A program made the translations under genes and the position numbers. A stretch of 10,322 nucleotides of DNA from Candidatus Avipropionibacterium avicola (lineage in GTDB: Bacteria > Actinomycetota > Actinomycetes > Propionibacteriales > Propionibacteriaceae), in the NCBI GenBank assembly GCA_018715445.1, contig DVLP01000416.1, forward strand, positions 1 through 10,322, read 5' to 3'. Position 1 is the first letter of the stretch; every line of letters begins with the position of its first letter. Shown piece by piece: positions 674-10,322 of the stretch. The notes under the pieces were generated by a model. The model searched no databases. It was not told the origin of the DNA and saw only the letters and a program-made list of their open reading frames with translations.

Positions 674-1645
674 ATGACGGCATTCATCTCACGCGCCGAG
701 TTGCTGGCGTCCGGGTTCACTCCGGCCGAGATCCGTGGGCACCTCGCGACCGGGGCCTGGACGTCCGTCGCGCGGGGTCGTTACGTGACGAAGCCCGGCG
801 GGGCCCACGGTTCGGTCGGGGAACGCCATGCCGTGCGGACCCATGCCGAGCTGTCCCGGTTCCGCTCGGAGGCGATCGTGGCGAGCCACCGCAGCGCAGC
901 GGTCCTCCATGGGCTCCCACTGTTGGGCCCGAAGCCCGGTCTCGTCGAAGTCACCCGGGACGGAGTCAACGGATCGCGGACGAGCAGTTCGGTCCAGGTC
1001 CGGGCCTCCAAGGTGCCACCCGAGGACCGCGTACGGATCGACGGGACCGCTGTCACGTCGGTCGCCCGCACGCTGGTGGACCTGGCACGTCACGATGAAC
1101 CGCTCCAGGCCATCGCGGCAGCCGACCGTGCGCTGGCAACCGAGCGCGTGACCGGGTCCGAAGTGGCGGCAGCGATGGCCCGGCTGGGCTCGGCCCCCGG
1201 CCTGCCGGCGGCTCGTCGTGTCCTGCAGCGGGCCGACGGTCGTGCCCACAGCGTGGGGGAGACGCGCCAGCGAATCGTCCTCGAGGACGGTGGGATCACC
1301 GGCCTGGCCTTCCAGATCGAGATCCGCGACGACCACGGTGGGTTCATCGGCCGTACCGATGCGGGCTTGGTGGAGCTGGGGATCCTGATCGAGTTCGACG
1401 GCAAGGAGAAGTACACGAAGTACCTACGGCCGGGGGAGCGGATGTCGGACGCCGTCCTGCGGGAGAAGAAGCGTGAAGACGCGTTGCGTGCGCTCGGCTG
1501 GATGGTGCTGCGGTTCGACTGGTCCGACCTGCGTCGCCCGGATGACGTGGTGCAGCGGGTCGGCCAGGAGATCGAGCACCGCCAGGAAGCACGGTTGCCC
1601 AGGGGATCGGTCATGGCCGCCGACCCCGTCCGCATCACCTTCTGA
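674..1645 (+). CDS. AbiEi-type winged-helix protein with C-terminal DUF559 nuclease-like domain
   Basis: The product is 323 residues. Residues 1-40 ([19 protein letters not shown], then a W..V.RGRYV segment) match the N-terminal winged-helix domain of type IV toxin-antitoxin AbiEi antitoxins. A middle part (about 65-160) carries the family's [13 protein letters not shown] and [11 protein letters not shown] blocks. The C-terminal region (about 192-300) is Vsr/DUF559-like, with a PD-(D/E)XK pattern: E196 in SVGETR, D229 in GRTDAG, E240 and K244 in IEFDGKEKY, then [15 protein letters not shown] and VLRF. All expected catalytic positions are present. Such genes are common as solitary copies in actinobacteria, and no AbiEii toxin gene is adjacent, so a classical antitoxin role is doubtful. 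ATG 674 is chosen because it starts the conserved domain; the frame stays open to 287 through repeat DNA, and GTG 638 is an alternative. No clear Shine-Dalgarno is seen. DNA nuclease or regulatory function is inferred. Confidence 0.85.
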
Positions 1646-1651
1646 CCTTCC

Positions 1652-1672
1652 GGGCCGTGCCTGAACGGCCTT
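1652..1672 (+). terminator. Weak hairpin after the nuclease gene
   Basis: GGCCGT (1653-1658) pairs with ACGGCC (1665-1670) across a six-base loop, with a possible G-T closing pair outside. It begins 7 bases after the stop codon. Only two T residues follow, so it is a weak intrinsic terminator at best; position is the main argument. Confidence 0.35.
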
Positions 1673-1818
1673 GGGTACGGGAGGCCCGCACACCGAGGGT
1701 GAGGACCGCGTACACCGGCGCGGGACCGCAGGCCGACGGCGGTGTGCTGTCCGACACCGCAACTGGCGGTCCGACCACGAGATGTGCGGACCTGGGTGGG
1801 ACAGTGGCCGGACGACGA

Positions 1819-1899
1819 CCGGACGCGACCCGGACGCACCCGGACGCAACCAGCCGGCGACCGTACGTGACCAGACCCGGACCGGACGGTGACCGTACG
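1819..1899 (+). repeat. Short phased repeats upstream of the infA promoter
   Basis: CCGGACGC occurs at 1819-1826, 1830-1837 and 1840-1847, spaced 11 and 10 bp, close to one helical turn. GACCGTACG, which contains the palindrome CGTACG, occurs at 1859-1867 and 1891-1899, a spacing of 32 bp or about three turns. All lie 60-140 bp upstream of the -35 element of the ribosomal operon. Helical phasing suggests a protein-binding array, but no known consensus fits and GC-rich low complexity could also explain it. Apart from these repeats, the weak hairpin at 1652-1672 and the promoter, I see nothing coding in 1646-2046. Confidence 0.4.
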
Positions 1900-1956
1900 A
1901 TTGCGCTGGCCCCGGAGCCACTCGCCCAGGGAGCCAGATCCACCCTCGTCGTGGAT

Positions 1957-1985
1957 TTGAGCAGTTGGGGGCCGTGGCGTAGAGT
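1957..1985 (+). promoter_or_regulatory. Sigma-A-type promoter of the infA-rplQ operon
   Basis: TTGAGC at 1957-1962 and TAGAGT at 1980-1985 are separated by exactly 17 bp. This matches the actinobacterial housekeeping pattern TTGNNN-17-TANNNT. Transcription would start near 1992, giving an infA leader of about 55 bases. No better candidate lies between the nuclease gene and infA. Confidence 0.7.
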
Positions 1986-1994
1986 GTCCTGTCG

Positions 1995-2013
1995 GTCACC
2001 TGTGCCGGGTGAC
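1995..2013 (+). other. Hairpin at the 5' end of the infA leader
   Basis: GTCACC (1995-2000) pairs with GGTGAC (2008-2013) around a seven-base loop, only a few bases after the predicted transcription start. A 5'-terminal stem of this kind could stabilise the mRNA. It leaves the infA start codon free. A DnaA-box-like ATGTCCACA follows at 2016-2024. Confidence 0.35.
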
Positions 2014-2046
2014 GCATGTCCACAGAACACCAGAGATTGTGAGTTC

Positions 2047-2268
2047 ATGGCGAAGAAAGAGGGCGCTCTCGAGATGGAGGGCACCGTGGTCGAGGCTCTG
2101 CCCAACGCGATGTTTCGCGTTGAGCTGACCAATGGTCACAAGGTGCTCGCCACCATCAGCGGCAAGATGCGTCAGCACTACATCCGCATCCTCCCGTCGG
2201 ACCGGGTTGTCGTGGAGCTCTCGCCGTACGACCTCACCCGTGGACGCATCGTCTTCCGGCACCGGTGA
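2047..2268 (+). CDS. infA: Translation initiation factor IF-1
   Basis: The product has 73 residues, the usual length for actinobacterial IF-1. It is a single OB-fold protein that binds the 30S A site during initiation with IF-2 and IF-3. The sequence runs [20 protein letters not shown], then [20 protein letters not shown], and ends with [13 protein letters not shown], matching the family from end to end. ATG 2047 is chosen because MAKK is the conserved start; the frame is open further upstream but that stretch is not IF-1-like. The Shine-Dalgarno is poor (AGAGATTGTGAG before the start). It is the first gene of the operon behind the promoter at 1957-1985. The gap to rpmJ is 156 bases, fairly long for this operon. 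Confidence 0.98.
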
Positions 2269-2424
2269 GTCGGACCAGGCCATCCTGATCCGCCGCACCA
2301 CCTCGTACGGAATCGCCTCACCGCGACCCGGACGAAACCCCGCCCAACCCAACAGTGCGAGCCCGGCTGCTGTCCCAGTGGCAGAGCAGGAGCATCTCGC
2401 GCTGACGAACCAGAAAGACCCTCG

Positions 2425-2538
2425 ATGAAGGTCCAGCCGAGCGTCAAGAAGATGTGTGACAAGTGCAAGGTCATTCGTCGACACGGTCGGGTCCTGGTGA
2501 TCTGCGACAACCCTCGCCACAAGCAGCGGCAGGGCTGA
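2425..2538 (+). CDS. rpmJ: 50S ribosomal protein L36
   Basis: This 37-residue gene encodes bacterial L36, a tiny zinc-ribbon protein that binds 23S rRNA in the large subunit. The sequence [19 protein letters not shown], then [17 protein letters not shown] is full length. The zinc ligands C11, C14, C27 and H32 are all present, so this is the zinc-dependent (C+) form; many actinobacteria also carry a zinc-free paralogue elsewhere. Purines AGAAAGA lie at 2412-2418, 6 bases before the ATG, as a modest ribosome binding site. Its place between infA and rpsM is the standard order. Confidence 0.98.
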
Positions 2539-2599
2539 GCACCACCGGCCCGTACGGTCGCCGAAGCCGGCACCACGGCCACACCCACAACTGAACAGC

Positions 2600-2688
2600 C
2601 ACCTCGGACGAGGTGAAAAACAACAGTGTGACAGCACCCCGGACGCGCAGTACGGCGTACGGGCCCACCTCCGGATCGTTGGCCGGAG
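2600..2688 (+). other. Two hairpins in the rpmJ-rpsM spacer
   Basis: The 217-base spacer 2539-2755 has no gene. CACCTC (2600-2605) pairs with GAGGTG (2610-2615) around GGAC, followed by five A residues. CTCCGG (2669-2674) pairs with CCGGAG (2683-2688) around an eight-base loop. The spacer is unusually long for this operon. The hairpins may be sites for processing or for feedback binding by a ribosomal protein, but in GC-rich DNA six-pair stems also occur by chance. Confidence 0.3.
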
Positions 2689-2755
2689 CCCCACCTGCCA
2701 GGCGGGGACGCTGCACGCCCCACACCGACGACATGGAATCGAAGGGTAACCACCC

Positions 2756-3124
2756 ATGGCACGCCTCATTGGTGTTGACCTCCCGCGCGACAAGCGCGTC
2801 GAGATCGCACTCACCTACATCTTCGGGATCGGACGCACCCGCGCCCTGGAGACTCTCGCCGCTACCGGTGTCAGCGGGGACCTGCGGGTCCACGAGCTCA
2901 CCGACGAGCACCTGGTCGCCCTGCGCGACCACATCGAAGCGAACTACCAGATCGAAGGTGACCTCCGCCGTGAGGTCGCCGCCGACATCCGCCGCAAGGT
3001 CGAGATCGGTTGCTACCAGGGTCGCCGTCACCGCAGCAACCTCCCGGTCCGTGGCCAGCGCACCAAGACCAATGCGCGCACCCGCAAGGGCAAGCGCAAG
3101 CCGGTCGCCGGCAAGAAGAAGTGA
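2756..3124 (+). CDS. rpsM: 30S ribosomal protein S13
   Basis: S13 sits in the head of the small subunit, touches tRNA and forms bridges to the large subunit. The 122-residue product has the full family pattern: [26 protein letters not shown], the helix-rich middle, the [23 protein letters not shown] signature at about residues 90-112, and a lysine-rich tail ending KPVAGKKK. Length is normal. GAAGGG (2741-2746) lies 9 bases before ATG 2756. It starts the S13-S11-S4-alpha-L17 block and is 46 bases from rpsK. Confidence 0.98.
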
Positions 3125-3170
3125 CGCGGACCGCGCGCGAATCGACGAGAGACTTCAGGAGTAATTGAGC

Positions 3171-3575
3171 ATGGCTACAGCTGGCCGAAGCACTGGCGCC
3201 AAGAAGGTGCGCCGCAAGGACAAGCGGTCCGTCCCCGCCGGACAGGCCCACATCAAGTCCACCTTCAACAACACGATCATCACCATCACCGACCCGGCCG
3301 GAGGCGTCATCGCCTGGGCCTCGGCCGGCACGGTGGGTTTCAAGGGGTCGCGCAAGTCGACCCCGTACGCAGCGCAGATGGCGGCCGAGGCCGCTGGTCG
3401 GCGTGCGATGGACCACGGCATGAAGCGGGTCGACGTCTTCGTGAAGGGCCCGGGCTCGGGCCGCGAGACCGCGATCCGTTCCCTCGGCGCGCTCGGGCTG
3501 GAGATCGGCCCGATCAGCGACGTGACCCCTGTCCCGCACAACGGCTGCCGCCCGCCCAAGCGGCGCCGCGTCTGA
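3171..3575 (+). CDS. rpsK: 30S ribosomal protein S11
   Basis: The product has 134 residues. S11 is part of the platform of the small subunit and contacts 16S rRNA near the E site. A basic N-terminus ([20 protein letters not shown]) is followed by the core [24 protein letters not shown] and by the conserved end [23 protein letters not shown] 3171 is chosen over the in-frame TTG at 3165 because AGGAGT (3157-3162) lies 8 bases before it and MATAGRS is a typical start. The gap to rpsD is 38 bases. Confidence 0.98.
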
Positions 3576-5420: not shown

Positions 5421-6104
5421 ATGCCTACTCCCACCAAGGGGAACCGCCTCGGCGGCAGCCCGGCGCACCAGCGGCTGATCCTGGCCAACCTGGCGACCCA
5501 GCTGTTCGAGCACGGGCGCATCACCACCACCGAGACCAAGGCCAAGCGGGTCCGCCCGCTCGCCGAGCGGTTGATCACCAAGGCCAAGCGTGGCGACCTG
5601 CACGCTCGCCGTCAGGTGATGGCCACCATCCGTGACAAGGGTGTGGTGCACCAGCTCTTCACCGAGATCGCTCCGGTCATGGCCGAGCGTGACGGTGGCT
5701 ACCTGCGCATCACCAAGATCGGTCCCCGCAAGGGCGACAACGCCCCCATGGCGATCATCGAACTGGTCACCGACCCGGTCCAGAAGAAGGACAAGTCCGC
5801 TGCCGCTCCGACTGCTGCTCCCGCTGCCGAGGAGACCGACGAGGTCACCGAGGTCGAGGACGCCGCCGACGAGGCCGCGACCGAGGAGACCGCTGACGGG
5901 ACCTTCCGTGGTGAGGAGCCGCCCGTCGGCTTCGACATCAAGGGCAACGAGGACTCGATGAAGTACCACACCCCGGACTCGCCGTGGTACTCGCAGACCA
6001 TCGCCGAGGTCTGGTTCAACAGCACCGAGGCCGCTGAGGCCGCTGGTTTCGTCGCCGCCGTCGCCTCGAAGGACGACGACGAGGACGAGGCTGACGAGAA
6101 GTGA
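5421..6104 (+). CDS. rplQ: 50S ribosomal protein L17 with C-terminal sunset-like domain
   Basis: The 227-residue product is far longer than a minimal L17 (about 120). Residues 1-119 are the L17 core: [40 protein letters not shown], then a [13 protein letters not shown] end. L17 lies near the peptide exit side of the large subunit. Residues 122-168 are an Ala/Glu/Asp/Thr-rich linker. Residues 173-210 form a compact extra module starting [18 protein letters not shown] and ending [12 protein letters not shown], which matches the motif I remember as the actinobacterial 'sunset' domain. The tail (216-227) is almost all Asp/Glu. AGAGGAAAG (5408-5416) is a strong ribosome binding site. It is the last gene of the operon. 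The module's role is unknown, and a related copy ends the minus-strand gene at 9829-10322. Confidence 0.97.
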
Positions 6105-6107
6105 GCT

Positions 6108-6161
6108 GATCCCGTGCGGGATCTGACGGCGGCCACCCACACGGGTGGCCGCCGTTCTCTT
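6108..6161 (+). terminator. Terminator of the infA-rplQ operon
   Basis: A small hairpin GATCCC/GGGATC (6108-6113 with 6118-6123, loop GTGC) starts 3 bases after the rplQ stop. It is followed by a 13-pair perfect stem (6126-6138 with 6143-6155, loop ACAC) and then TCTCTTCCCC. The long GC stem plus a pyrimidine-rich, partly T tail makes a good intrinsic terminator. Confidence 0.85.
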
Positions 6162-6170
6162 CCCCTGGCG

Positions 6171-6188
6171 AATGCAACGTTGTAAATT
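6171..6188 (+). promoter_or_regulatory. LacI-like operator over the -10 region of the hydrolase gene
   Basis: AATGCAACGTTGTAAATT contains the perfect palindrome CAACGTTG (6175-6182), centred on CG as in many LacI-family operators of sugar genes. TAAATT (6183-6188) fits a -10 element, which would put the transcription start at about 6195, on the A of the start codon. No convincing -35 is visible (TTCCCC at 6160-6165). This AT-rich patch stands out in GC-rich DNA. Repressor identity is inferred; no regulator gene is in the window. Confidence 0.5.
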
Positions 6189-6194
6189 GGGCTC

Positions 6195-8000
6195 ATGGAC
6201 ATCGACATCCCACGCCCTGAGTACCCCCGCCCGCAGATGGTCCGCGACCAGTGGCTCAGTCTCAACGGCCAGTGGGAGTTCGAGGTCGACCGGGGTGACT
6301 CCGGTCTCGAGCGGGGCCTGGGCGAGCGTGGCCTCACCCAGCGGATCGTGGTGCCCTTCGCGCCGGAGTCGGAGCTGTCCGGCATCGGCGACACCGACTT
6401 CCTGCACGCGGTCTGGTACGCGCGTGACGTCGAGTTCCCCGCGGCCTGGCAGGGCCAGCGGGTGGTGCTGCACTTCGGTGCGGTCGACCATGACGCCACG
6501 ATCTGGGTGAACGGCACCGAGGTGGGCCGCCACCGCGGTGGCTTCGCCAGCTTCTCCTTCGACATCACCGATGCCCTCGACGGGCTGCGGGGCCGGATCG
6601 TCGTGCGCGCCCGGGACGCCGCCAAGGGGCCCCAGGCCCGTGGCAAGCAGTCGGTCGAGTACGCCAACCGGGCCTGCAACTACACCCGCACCACCGGCAT
6701 CTGGCAGAGCGTGTGGGCCGAGCCGGTGCCCGAGGCCCACCTCGAGCGGCCCCAGATCATCCCGGATCTCGACAACGCCACCATCACCGTGGTCCAGCCG
6801 CTCAGTGCCGCCCGGAAGGGCTGGCGGGTGGTGGGCTCGCTGACCGACGCCGGCGGCGAAGTCGTACGGACCGAGGTCGCGACCGGCTCGATGGCGCCGC
6901 GGTTGGTGCTGAGCATCCCGAGTGACCGGGTGCGTGCCTGGGACACCCAGGACCCGCACCTGTACGGCCTCGAGGTGGAGTTGGTCGACGCCGACGGTGC
7001 GCAGGTCGACCGGTGGCAGGGCTACGCCGGGCTGCGCTCCATCGCCATCGACGGGCACCGCATCCTGCTCAACGGTGAACCCGTCTTCCAACGCCTGGTG
7101 CTGGACCAGGGCTACTGGCCGCAGTCGCTGATGACCGCCCCCAGCGAGGCCGCCCTGGTCACCGATCTGGAACTGCTGCTCAAGGCCGGGTTCAACGGCG
7201 CGCGGATCCACCAGAAGGTCGCCGAGGAGCGCTACCTCTACCACGCCGACCGCCTCGGCATCCTGCTGTGGGGCGAGTACGGCGACTGGGGGATCAACGG
7301 CCACGGACCGACCGGGGACAACCAGCGACCCACACTGTCGTTCCTGTCCGAGTGGGCCGAGATCGTGCGGCGCGACCTCAGCCATCCCTCGATCATCGGT
7401 TGGTGCCCGCTCAACGAGACCTGGCAGGAGATCACCGACCGGATCACCGATCTGGACGATGTCACTCAGGCGATGTACTGGACGACCAAGACGATCGACC
7501 CGACCCGACCGGTGCTGGACACCTCCGGCTATGCCCACCGGGTCCGCGGCGCCGATGTCTATGACTCCCACCAGTACGAGCAGGACCCGCAGAAGTTCGC
7601 CGAGCTGGTCGGTGGGCTCGCCGAGGGACGACCGTACGTGAACGCCGGGGCCAACGGCTGGGCGTGGTCGGTGGACTACGAAGGCCAGCCCTACTTCGTC
7701 AGTGAGTACGGCGGCATCTGGTGGAACCCGGACACCGCGGCCCAGTCCGACGGTGGGGACCGCACCGTCTCGTGGGGCTACGGCCAGCGGGTGCACGACG
7801 AGGAGGAGTTCCAGGTCCGGTTCGCCGGCCTCACCGACGTGCTGCTCGACGACCCGTTGATGTTCGGCTACTGCTACACCCAGTTGACCGACGTCTTCCA
7901 GGAGGAGAACGGGATCTATCGCTTCGACCGCTCCGAAAAGCTCGATGTGGCACGGGTGGCCCAGGTGCAGCGTCGCGAGGCCGCCTTCGAACGCGAGTGA
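6195..8000 (+). CDS. Glycoside hydrolase family 2 exo-beta-glycosidase
   Basis: The 601-residue product has no signal peptide, so it acts in the cytoplasm on imported sugars. It has the compact GH2 layout. A jelly-roll sugar-binding domain (about 1-175) includes LNGQWEFEVD, HFGAVDHDATIWVNGTEVG and TTGIWQSVW. An Ig-like domain follows (about 176-290), then a TIM barrel (about 291-600). The acid/base is E408 in WCPLNETW and the nucleophile E504 in FVSEYGG; both are present. LDQGYWPQSLMTAPS and HQKVAEERYLYHADRLGILLWGE are typical of the branch often annotated beta-glucuronidase or beta-galactosidase. I cannot fix the sugar specificity, and no clear glucuronidase N-x-K signature was identified. 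No Shine-Dalgarno precedes ATG 6195 (AATTGGGCTC), and a -10 just upstream suggests a leaderless mRNA. The next gene, a sugar-type binding lipoprotein, supports a role in glycoside use. Confidence 0.9.
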   Translation: MDIDIPRPEYPRPQMVRDQWLSLNGQWEFEVDRGDSGLERGLGERGLTQRIVVPFAPESELSGIGDTDFLHAVWYARDVEFPAAWQGQRVVLHFGAVDHDATIWVNGTEVGRHRGGFASFSFDITDALDGLRGRIVVRARDAAKGPQARGKQSVEYANRACNYTRTTGIWQSVWAEPVPEAHLERPQIIPDLDNATITVVQPLSAARKGWRVVGSLTDAGGEVVRTEVATGSMAPRLVLSIPSDRVRAWDTQDPHLYGLEVELVDADGAQVDRWQGYAGLRSIAIDGHRILLNGEPVFQRLVLDQGYWPQSLMTAPSEAALVTDLELLLKAGFNGARIHQKVAEERYLYHADRLGILLWGEYGDWGINGHGPTGDNQRPTLSFLSEWAEIVRRDLSHPSIIGWCPLNETWQEITDRITDLDDVTQAMYWTTKTIDPTRPVLDTSGYAHRVRGADVYDSHQYEQDPQKFAELVGGLAEGRPYVNAGANGWAWSVDYEGQPYFVSEYGGIWWNPDTAAQSDGGDRTVSWGYGQRVHDEEEFQVRFAGLTDVLLDDPLMFGYCYTQLTDVFQEENGIYRFDRSEKLDVARVAQVQRREAAFERE

Positions 8001-8003
8001 CGT

Positions 8004-8021
8004 AATGGTCTTGTAACCATT
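8004..8021 (+). promoter_or_regulatory. Inverted repeat upstream of the binding-protein gene
   Basis: AATGGT (8004-8009) and ACCATT (8016-8021) form a perfect inverted repeat with a CTTGTA spacer, starting 4 bases after the hydrolase stop codon. It is about 50 bp upstream of the proposed -10. The overall form AATG...TTGTAA...ATT resembles the palindromic site before the hydrolase gene, so both may bind one sugar-responsive regulator. It is too weak and T-poor to be a terminator. Confidence 0.4.
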
Positions 8022-8059
8022 TCGGACGACCGGACCGTCATTTGCGTTCAACCGTGATC

Positions 8060-8088
8060 TATTGTTAGGCCATCCCGCAGGGGGCGGG
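8060..8088 (+). promoter_or_regulatory. Putative -10 element and leader hairpin of the binding-protein gene
   Basis: TATTGT at 8060-8065 fits the TANNNT pattern of a housekeeping -10, in an AT-richer stretch; no good -35 lies at 17 bp (GTCATT at 8037-8042). Transcription would start near 8072, leaving a G-rich leader of about 47 bases. Within it CCCGC (8074-8078) can pair with GCGGG (8084-8088). AAGGGGGG just before ATG 8119 serves as ribosome binding site. Confidence 0.4.
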
Positions 8089-8118
8089 GACTTTGACGAT
8101 GGAGCAAGGGGGGCGGCC

Positions 8119-9759
8119 ATGTTCGGCAGCCAGATGGCACGTAGGACACTTCTCGGCGGAGGGCTGGCAGTTGGCGCTGCCGCAGCCTTGGCCGGTTGTC
8201 GCACCGATGGCGGTGGCGGCACGGGGACCGGGGGCGACTCGGGTGGCGGCGACGTCTCCTCGATCCGCCCGAACTACATCCCGTACGACGGACCACAACC
8301 CGACCTGCCCGGCGACGGCGCGATCGGCGTCCCGAACGGGTTCCTGAGCTACCCGTCGCCGCCGCCCAGCACCGGCGGTGTGCCGGTCGGGCTCTCGAAG
8401 CCGGTCGAGATGATGGTGCAGGGTGTCGCCTCGGCCACCCCGCACAGCAAGAACCAGTGGTGGCAGATGTGGGACAAGGACCTGGGCGCCGAGCTCAGCG
8501 TCAACGTGGTCGACAGCACGCAGTACACCGCGAAGTTCCAGACCGCGACCGCCGGTGGCACCTTCGCCGAGATCACCCAGATCGTGACGGTGCCGCAGCT
8601 GCCGAAGCTGCTGGAGTCGATGTTCACCGACCTGACGCCGTACCTGTCGGGTGACAACATCGCGAAGTACCCGAACCTGGCGGCCCATCCGGCCGATGCC
8701 TGGGACATGTGCATCATCAACGGCAAGATCTGGGGCATCACCAACCCCCGGATCGTGGCCGGCACGGTCGGGATGACCCGCGGGGACATCCTGGAGGAGA
8801 AGGGGATCGACCTGATCCCCGAGCTCAACAGTGGCGAGGACTTCCTCGACCTGTGCCGCGAGATCACCGACCGCAAGGCCGGGACCTTTGCCATCGGGCA
8901 GATCCCGCAGAACTGGACGATCCCGTTGATCATGGAGTCGCTCGGCGGCGCCAACGTCTGGCAGGTCGACAACGGCACCTGGATCTCCCAGTACGAGACC
9001 CCGGAGTACGAACGGGCGCTCGAGATCGTGACCCAGATGTACGACGAGGGGCTCTTCCATCCCAACAGCTACTCGGACCTGAGCTCCACCGCCGTCTGGT
9101 TCGACGGTGGCGCGACCGCGATCTTCGCGCAGAACTTCGCCTCCTGGCAGACCCGCGCCGGGACCGATGCGAAGCCGTACGACTACCCCTGTGGCGTGGT
9201 GAAGATGCCGAAGTGGGACGGTGGCGGGGTGGCCGAGAAGCACCTCGGCGCCCCCGGCTACGGCGCACCGGTCGGGTTGGCCAAGACCGATGACGAGGCC
9301 CGCATCGACGAGTTGTTGAAGGTTGCGGACTACTTCGCCTCGCCGTTCGGGACCGAGGAGTTCCTCAAGGTCAACTACGGTGTCGAGGGCCGCCAGTACA
9401 ACCTCAAGGACGGTCAGGTCCGCCCGGTCGCCGACGTCACCGACGAGCGGATCCCCGGACCCGCCTACTACGGTGCCACCAACGCGGTGAACATCTACTC
9501 CCCGGGCAGCCAGGAGGCCACCGAGCTGCTGCACGCCTACTGCCAGGAGATGATCCCGACAGGCGTGCGCAACCCCTCGTACGGCAAGTTCTCCGACACC
9601 GCGGCGAGCAAGGGTGCTGCGGCCGACAAGAAGCTCAACGACATCCAGGGTGACATCATCCAGGGACGGGCCAAGCTGTCCGAGTGGGCCGATGCGGTCA
9701 AGGAGTGGAAGTCCGCCGCCGGTGATGCGGTGGCTCGGGAGTACGCCGAGCAGGAGTGA
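8119..9759 (+). CDS. Solute-binding lipoprotein of a carbohydrate ABC transporter
   Basis: The product has 546 residues from ATG 8119, preceded by AAGGGGGG (8108-8113) at good spacing; TTG 8062 is in frame but overlaps the probable -10, and ATG 8134 is an alternative. The N-terminus MARRTLLGGGLAVGAAAALA leads to a lipobox LAGC with the acylated cysteine at residue 27. The arginine pair R8-R9 suggests Tat export. A Gly-rich linker follows. The mature part has features of large family-1 sugar-binding proteins such as LipO/YtcQ: TATAGGTFAEITQIVTVPQL, MTRGDILEEKGID, MYDEGLFHPNSYS, and a VADYFASPFGTEEF block near the C-terminus. It would hand an oligosaccharide or glycoside to membrane permeases, but none is encoded here and the next gene runs the other way. 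Substrate is unknown; the neighbouring GH2 enzyme is the best hint. Confidence 0.88.
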   Translation: MFGSQMARRTLLGGGLAVGAAAALAGCRTDGGGGTGTGGDSGGGDVSSIRPNYIPYDGPQPDLPGDGAIGVPNGFLSYPSPPPSTGGVPVGLSKPVEMMVQGVASATPHSKNQWWQMWDKDLGAELSVNVVDSTQYTAKFQTATAGGTFAEITQIVTVPQLPKLLESMFTDLTPYLSGDNIAKYPNLAAHPADAWDMCIINGKIWGITNPRIVAGTVGMTRGDILEEKGIDLIPELNSGEDFLDLCREITDRKAGTFAIGQIPQNWTIPLIMESLGGANVWQVDNGTWISQYETPEYERALEIVTQMYDEGLFHPNSYSDLSSTAVWFDGGATAIFAQNFASWQTRAGTDAKPYDYPCGVVKMPKWDGGGVAEKHLGAPGYGAPVGLAKTDDEARIDELLKVADYFASPFGTEEFLKVNYGVEGRQYNLKDGQVRPVADVTDERIPGPAYYGATNAVNIYSPGSQEATELLHAYCQEMIPTGVRNPSYGKFSDTAASKGAAADKKLNDIQGDIIQGRAKLSEWADAVKEWKSAAGDAVAREYAEQE

Positions 9760-9779
9760 GCGAGATCCGTTGACACACG

Positions 9780-9820
9780 GGAAAGGGCCGGTCGGAGCGC
9801 TCCGACCGGCCCTTTCCTTT
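9780..9820. terminator. Bidirectional terminator, perfect 38-nt palindrome
   Basis: Positions 9780-9817 are a perfect palindrome centred between 9798 and 9799, with arms of 19 bases (GGAAAGGGCC through GGAGC, then its complement). TTT follows on the plus strand. The A-rich outer part of one arm and T-rich outer part of the other serve both directions. It lies between the convergent genes ending at 9759 and 9829, so it can stop transcription from both sides. Confidence 0.85.
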
Positions 9821-9828
9821 GCGTGGTC

Positions 9829-10322
9829 TCAGATCAAGGACTTGCGGTAGCCGGCCTTCTTGGCGGCCGACTCGGTCCGGAAGCACTCCTCGGGATGGGT
9901 CTTGGTGTAGAAGCGCTGGCCCTTCAGGTGATAGATCATCGAGGGCTGGTTGCCCTTGATCGGTGCCCAGGAGGGGCAGGAGGTCCTGGAGCTCGGGGTG
10001 GTCCGCGTCGGGTACGAGATCGCTGCGGTGGCCTTCGAGGTCCGCGAGACCGTGGTGTGGCCCTTGAGCTTGCCGGTGACCTTGACGCTGGCCTTCATGC
10101 CGACCCGGGACGGAGTCATCTTCAGGGTCTTGTTGGTGCCGCCCTTGACGGCCTTGCCGTTGAGGTACCAGCGGTAGGTGAACTTCGTGCCCTTGGTCCA
10201 GCTACCCGGCTTGGCGTTCAACTTGGAGTTGACCTTGGCCGAGCCCTTGATCGTCGGGGTGGAGACCTTGGCGACCTTGGTCGAGGCCGAGGAGGTACGG
10301 CTGGTGGTGGCGTAGCCGGACT
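9829..10322 (-). CDS. C-terminal part of an Ig-like repeat surface protein with sunset-like domain (5'-truncated)
   Basis: The minus-strand frame is open from the window edge to TGA 9829-9831, giving 163 residues with the N-terminus missing. A Ser/Thr-rich linker is followed by an Ig-like repeat at about 18-103 (STPTIKGSAKVNSKLNAKPG, SWTKGTKFTYRWYLNGK, then SRVGMKASVKVTG), a repeat frequent in secreted or wall-linked actinobacterial proteins. A second linker leads to a C-terminal module (121-158) starting IKGNQPSMIYH and ending SAAKKAGY, the same module as at the end of L17. C115 (SCPSW) and C146 (PEECF) flank and lie inside it and could form a disulfide, which fits export. The protein is basic. 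TTG 10219-10221 is in frame but is inside the Ig-like repeat and not a real start. The full-length function cannot be told from this part. Confidence 0.8.
   Translation of the reverse strand, partial: SGYATTSRTSSASTKVAKVSTPTIKGSAKVNSKLNAKPGSWTKGTKFTYRWYLNGKAVKGGTNKTLKMTPSRVGMKASVKVTGKLKGHTTVSRTSKATAAISYPTRTTPSSRTSCPSWAPIKGNQPSMIYHLKGQRFYTKTHPEECFRTESAAKKAGYRKSLI

Follow-up and report, generated by a model that had tools for sequence, protein, structure and literature searches.

Sunset domains on ribosomal protein L17 and on a secreted protein of an actinobacterial contig: a candidate docking module that changes carriers

Two sunset domains in one contig

The window analyzed here is a whole stretch of 10,322 nucleotides from Candidatus Avipropionibacterium avicola (assembly GCA_018715445.1, contig DVLP01000416.1), apparently one entire contig of an assembly of 3.25 Mb that comprises 469 contigs and is 91% complete. 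It encodes two copies of the sunset domain, one at the C-terminal end of ribosomal protein bL17 and the other at the end of a secreted protein on the opposite strand, 4 kb away. The rplQ gene (5421..6104, plus strand) specifies a bL17 of 227 amino acids with a C-terminal sunset domain, which matches PF01196 and reaches 336.9 bits against NF051448 (cut-off 280), with its residues 1-213 aligned to positions 1-228 of the 229 in that model. The L17 core (residues 1-116, 5421..5768) extends to residue 116, where the PF01196 match ends, and is followed by an acidic, alanine-rich linker (residues 117-158, 5769..5894) that is recognizable from its sequence and charge and from its lower conservation in relatives. 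The sunset domain itself is an ordered unit (residues 159-214, 5895..6062) that matches NF051437, contains no cysteine, and is predicted by AlphaFold2 with a mean predicted local distance difference test score (pLDDT) of 96.5 over its 56 residues. Behind it lies an acidic tail of 13 residues (6063..6101).

The second copy lies on the minus strand in the 3' part of a gene for a secreted protein (9829..10320), the N-terminus of which is lost at the contig end. A relative of this protein, P0003, is 97% identical to it and has an apparent signal peptide and two immunoglobulin (Ig)-like repeats, as judged by eye. The part present in the window contains an Ig-like beta domain (10027..10263, approximate limits), identified from predicted strands and from best Foldseek matches that are Ig-like, and a sunset domain (9835..10002), identified from NF051437 and from its predicted structure. 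A preliminary description of this DNA had called it a surface protein on an Ig-like stalk; the Ig-like repeats stand, but no anchor was seen in P0003, and "secreted" is the safer word. PF27542 is listed for 28 of 28 relatives of the secreted protein. Where the L17 domain, inside the cell, has the tryptophan of an EVWF motif, the secreted domain has the cysteine of EECF and a second cysteine upstream (codons 9976-9978 and 9883-9885), both invariant in 29 of 29 rows, and a disulfide in the secreted copy is likely. The net charges are also opposite, with a mean of +4.0 in two secreted domains versus -6.3 in 45 L17 domains.

The two copies had been aligned without gaps over 5937-6050 (plus strand, L17 residues 173-210) and 9847-9960 (minus strand, IKGNQPSMIYHLKGQRFYTKTHPEECFRTESAAKKAGY), and both the coordinates and the count of 16 identities in 38 positions are right. 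Pairwise BLASTP gives E 1e-10 for the pair, and 100,000 shuffles of one segment yielded at most 11 identities. The name "sunset" given earlier to the module is also right, with NF051437 of NCBIfam scoring 80.2 bits on L17 and 59.5 bits on the secreted protein (cut-off 27), the only two places in the assembly above that cut-off. Failure of a model of one copy to retrieve the other had been named as grounds for abandoning the relationship. In the whole assembly, a profile of the secreted relatives retrieves L17 at E 4.5e-7 with no other match up to E 10, and a cytosolic-type profile retrieves the secreted copy at E 1.2e-12 with the next match at E 0.49; retrieval in both directions also holds on the 156 open segments of the window with models built without the window rows. 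Comparison of the profiles of the two copies with each other gives a probability of 98.7% and E 1.5e-15. The predicted folds agree too, with strands and helix equally spaced at an offset of 106 in two separate, unsuperposed models. The length of 38 residues given earlier for the module has to be revised, as the ordered unit comprises about 56.

The closeness of the two copies looks accidental. A local duplication behind the 4-kb spacing is unsupported, the domains being alike at 16 of 38 residues and 61% identical in nucleotides. In a tree of sunset domains, the L17 domain of the window clusters with those on L17 and L4 in relatives, and the two secreted domains form a pair at 100/99; in one genome (G049) the secreted gene (C1:201661) is distant from the L4 carrier (C1:472212). 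The remainder of the window contains the end of a ribosomal gene cluster (S13, S11, and S4 by eye; rpoA and L17 by model). The gene usually found behind L17 is truA; here a family-2 glycoside hydrolase (6195-8000) follows directly, and then a putative solute-binding protein (by eye; Pfam gives a weak TAT signal only). An imperfect 72-base tandem repeat of 2.2-2.5 copies, built from 18-base units, is found at 220-401.

Carriers of the domain and changes between them

The sunset domain is present in 46 of 57 relatives, which contain 73 places above the model cut-off, all of them typed. These comprise 29 membrane proteins of a kind we call type A, 16 L17, 10 L4, 12 single-span proteins with the span near the N-terminus, two other short membrane proteins, two secreted proteins, one fragment, and one bS16. 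Counted by genome, the domain is on L17 in 16 of the 57, on L4 in 10, and on at least one ribosomal protein in 24. Of the 33 genomes in the family group of the window, 29 have type A, which is absent from the assembly of the window. Across the class, the sunset domain is rare (17 of 148 genomes). The two type A loci that were checked (L141, 2188-3171, plus strand; L160, 2209-3171, plus strand) encode a protein with an N-terminal part that looks helical, one span, and a terminal sunset domain, next to an opposite-strand cyclophilin gene and with an exonuclease-like open reading frame (ORF) further upstream. Further carriers came from 80 encoding places, the best among at least 559, a selection in which carrier shares are biased towards the query: uS2 (four Nocardioides records), a second bS16 (L149), uL22 (L167), and two GlgB (L120 and L122). 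Both GlgB proteins have the domain at the C-terminus and are encoded by an ORF at 1021-3177 (plus strand) in two Propionibacteriaceae bins, L120 being assigned by model and L122 by eye. Carrier identity rests on hidden Markov models for L040, L149, L167, L120, and L134, and on BLAST to these kinds or inspection by eye for the rest. Because some contigs occur both as a numbered and as a named locus (for example L053/L106 and L054/L112), the 166 typed ORFs are not 166 genomes. L20 as a carrier was found in none of 146 class genomes above the L20-sunset cut-off, and none of 50,697 phage genome records gave a match. The sunset model is also over its cut-off in the Bacillus subtilis control genome. 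The idea of one sunset domain per ribosome was rejected, with genomes G005 and G015 carrying it on three and two ribosomal proteins, respectively.

Carriers have changed repeatedly. On a tree of 153 different domain sequences and 55 columns, with unsettled bootstrap values that make the counts rough, 17 label changes are needed for L17, 14 for L4, two for S16, and three for type A, of which well-supported branches force at least seven, six, two, and one, respectively. The domains of G033 and G012:C2 stand outside this tree and outside the position and charge counts. Of the bS16 domains, the G005 copy has L4 domains as its nearest relatives (34/38) and the L149 copy a Microbacterium L17 domain (36/38); the two copies therefore resemble different donors and point to two separate captures. 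The GlgB copies cluster at 98/99 with an L4 copy (L118), each resembling it at 33 of 38 positions, and L118 shares one metagenome bin with the GlgB locus L122. Nearest neighbors of the 45 L17 rows are L17 only in 38, another carrier only in four, and ties in three; for the 39 L4 rows they are L4 only in 28, another carrier only in five, and ties in six, counts that lean towards the same carrier because some loci are duplicated and that come from a table without L088. These relationships indicate that most sunset copies were inherited with their carrier and that a minority moved between carriers. Hopping among ribosomal proteins in relatives suggests that the domain tags the whole ribosome and is not part of one protein.

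The side of the membrane was predicted from the charge bias around the most hydrophobic stretch of ORFs read from stop to stop, a weak method whose hydropathy limit also let through 7 of 40 L4 ORFs. In type A the positive side precedes the span in 43 of 43 proteins (one of the 44 lacks a clear span), which places the domain outside. The positive side follows the span in four of four LGFP-repeat carriers and in 8 of 15 proteins of the short single-span type (three opposite, four ties), which places it inside. By this bias, some membrane carriers have their sunset domain in the cytosol and others have it outside. The earlier proposal of a module used on both sides of the membrane is supported for the secreted kind, from its signal-peptide-like starts (by eye) and the cysteine pair in 29 of 29 rows, and is suggested by charge bias for one membrane-protein family. 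The predicted cytosolic domains of the LGFP and short types would also suit a model in which sunset domains bind each other or a shared partner, cross-linking ribosomes or holding them at membrane carriers, and exactly L17 plus the short single-span type occurs in six of the 57 relatives (seven counting G033). However, genomes such as G034, G047, and G055 have a ribosomal carrier without a cytosolic membrane carrier, and type A, the commonest carrier in the membrane, has its domain predicted outside throughout. We consider such clustering unlikely.

Selection, tethering, and a possible docking role

The ratio of nonsynonymous to synonymous substitution rates (dN/dS) was compared between the sunset domain and the ribosomal core in four sets of relatives, giving 0.38/0.17, 0.12/0.12, 0.08/0.07, and 0.32/0.22; a fifth set, a single pair, gave 0.32 for the domain and 0.25 for the core. 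The pairs are non-independent, two of three Acidipropionibacterium pairs are left out, the "Kribbella" set combines Kribbella loci with other relatives, and the "Brachybacterium" set includes one Actinomycetales bin. Identity of the linker is below that of the domain in five of five sets, barely so in Cutibacterium (91 vs 92%), and linker dN/dS exceeds that of the domain in three sets and is lower in two, where the synonymous rate of the linker is higher. From these substitution patterns, selection maintains the sunset domain. The patchy distribution and the change of carrier would fit a mobile passenger, carried from gene to gene by recombination and without functional effect on the ribosome, as would the L17 domain of G033, the last part of which is out of frame. 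A domain dN/dS of 0.08-0.38 across the five sets speaks against a neutral passenger, and we regard this explanation as improbable. In the G033 locus (L226, G033:C1:3307687-3308334), the frame is lost before the last helix, through decay or an assembly error.

In all 166 typed ORFs, no more than 43 residues separate the end of the domain from the stop, and linkers are acidic on average in each ribosomal class, only weakly in bS16. A position near the C-terminus behind a low-complexity linker, on unrelated carriers and in both compartments, is also what would be seen if a very stable small domain acted as a ligand-free cap that shields long disordered tails from proteases, and the incomplete conservation of polar residues described below suits such a cap. 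Ribosomal carriers nevertheless retain residues after the domain, on average 9.1 in L17 (up to 43) and 9.9 in L4. Moreover, L17 proteins of relatives that lack the domain match the L17-sunset model up to positions 160-195 of 229 and so retain part of the tail, which means that the tail predates or outlives the domain. A cap therefore does not seem a likely explanation. Binding of nucleic acids driven by charge is unlikely as well, because ribosomal sunset domains are acidic on average in each class (-2.5 to -6.3).

We tentatively favor a reading in which the sunset domain is a flexibly tethered docking module and the ribosome is one of several platforms for it. This is plausible because the domain is folded, under selection, tethered, near the C-terminus, and exchanged between carriers that seem to share little but solvent exposure. 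In this proposal, a metal-free miniature fold, probably derived from a zinc domain like the N-terminal domain of Ada, would act as the docking module. On the ribosome it would hang by a disordered linker from the C-termini of proteins of both subunits, and the choice of ribosomal carrier would matter little because the whole particle would be tagged. The membrane and secreted proteins would be other carriers, docked by a module of the same kind. The preliminary description suggested that the module is a generic binding fold and not a translation factor; the unrelated carriers, the change of carrier, the flexible tether, and selection lend this indirect support, and binding itself we infer. The more specific idea, that Actinobacteria mark the whole ribosome with a mobile docking module derived from an Ada-like zinc domain, is possible but doubtful; the module would link ribosomes to a partner and would move among six or more ribosomal proteins from both subunits, and to GlgB, because all that would count is that it sits on the outer face of the particle. 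A tag read by a protease adaptor during ribosome breakdown or quality control has precedent, since C-terminal tags of this type are a known principle, but a well-folded domain and secreted carriers do not fit it, and it appears very improbable.

Several observations weigh against a docking module. The distribution is patchy, with a ribosomal carrier in 24 of the 57 relatives and an L17 tail without sunset in G001, which belongs to the same genus, and the domain is therefore dispensable. Single genomes have several ribosomal carriers (L17, L4, and S16 in G005; L17 and L4 in G015). Should the topology predictions be right, no single partner in the cytosol could serve every carrier. The core polar residues are incompletely kept: histidine is absent in 4 of 16 short membrane carriers, in all four LGFP-type carriers, and in the membrane carrier of G012. 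Those that are kept could be structural.

Lysine, histidine, and threonine are invariant in the 67 rows of our alignment A1 and in 29 secreted rows, and asparagine is kept in at least 90% of A1. Over 163 typed domains, asparagine is present in 151, histidine in 153, and threonine in 156, while lysine, in 163 of 163, is uninformative because the search pattern demanded it. A single invariant Lys-Asn-His-Thr site in all sunset domains is rejected by these counts, conservation being incomplete and lowest in membrane carriers. An ORF of G012 (L244, 2386-4176, minus strand) encodes a protein with one span, in which a very long low-complexity stretch of acidic character precedes a divergent sunset domain without the usual histidine and threonine.

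If the proposal is true, a domain that selection maintains while its ribosomal carrier changes would provide an unusual kind of evidence for a lineage tagging the ribosome as a particle. With the carriers and the fold named, "function unknown" becomes a simple pull-down question.

Relation to catalogued domains, Ada, and ribosome structures

The fusion of L17 with a sunset domain is already catalogued, as NF051448 ("50S ribosomal protein L17, sunset domain variant"). In NCBIfam release 20 the sunset domain has a model (NF051437), and there are named variants for L17, L4, L20, S2, and ArfC; none was found for S16, L22, or GlgB. Both window copies are over the domain cut-off and L17 is over the variant cut-off, but the 42-position model NF051437 begins at 5937, 14 residues inside the ordered unit seen here. 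A search of the literature available here found no paper naming the sunset domain, and a search for a C-terminal extension of L17 in Actinobacteria found nothing. The 56-residue unit with its Ada-like match, the bS16, uL22, and GlgB carriers, the change of carrier, the selection, and the charge bias for both sides of the membrane were not found in print in these searches. Three points lift the case above routine annotation: its changes of carrier, the carriers for which no NCBI variant model was found, and the predicted fold with its Ada-like match.

Relatives of the domain are also encoded by viral contigs, in 10 of 30 stretches that contain the search pattern. Like the domain of L17, these IKGN...YHxPGG...AGY domains are C-terminal, and they share 43-48% identity with it over the matched stretch. 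In contrast to the L17 domain, 8 of the 10 have a cysteine pair, and their carriers are membrane proteins (eight) or apparent nucleases by eye (two), none of them ribosomal. In L204-L210 and L212, a membrane protein has a variable number of AQRKAQED-like repeats followed by a cysteine-containing, sunset-like end.

The best-matching fold is that of the N-terminal domain of Ada (PF02805; PDB 1u8b, 1wpk, and 1zgw), which takes ranks 1, 2, and 4 among the fold matches over 49-53 of 56 residues, with weak scores. Three of five matches of the sunset model below its cut-off (G000, G010, and G049) lie on PF02805 domains. An hhalign comparison of the sunset and Ada alignments scores 15.2, whereas 100 column shuffles reach no more than 9.0, yet its probability is only 2.7%; the secreted set scores 24.4 against the Ada alignment, but the pairing includes a long gap and lacks a shuffle control. 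A strict pattern admitted 11 of 30 PF02805 loci to the Ada alignment. Against this link, the other two matches below the cut-off lie off PF02805, the A1 profile does not retrieve the Ada of the genome of the window, and of the 67 A1 members two give weak matches to the nuclease model PF00565 (E 0.1) but only one to PF02805 (E 0.11), which matches neither window copy. Ada has four cysteine ligands for zinc, whereas only 4 of 163 sunset domains (L088 left out) have a cysteine in the 38-residue core, namely two secreted, one ArfC-like, and one nuclease-like; one L4 domain (L107) has a cysteine upstream of the core. A zinc site is rejected for the L17 copy and its kind, as their core lacks cysteine. 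On the predicted fold and these partial matches, the sunset domain may descend from an Ada-N-like zinc domain from which the metal was lost.

The only PDB chain with a sunset domain by sequence is an L4, present in six entries (8crx and five more). Entries 8crx and 8cvm are ribosome structures of Cutibacterium acnes, in which uL4 has a solvent-exposed extension, 100 residues longer than in the Escherichia coli protein, that lacks density in the 70S cryo-EM map and is likely disordered according to the authors (PMC10085706). The sunset domain of this uL4 is at residues 250-287. This system differs from the window in having the domain on L4, not L17, and the passages on the extension describe it without mentioning a domain (PMC10085706). 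As the uL4 tail is invisible in the C. acnes map (PMC10085706), a partner lost on purification could have escaped notice.

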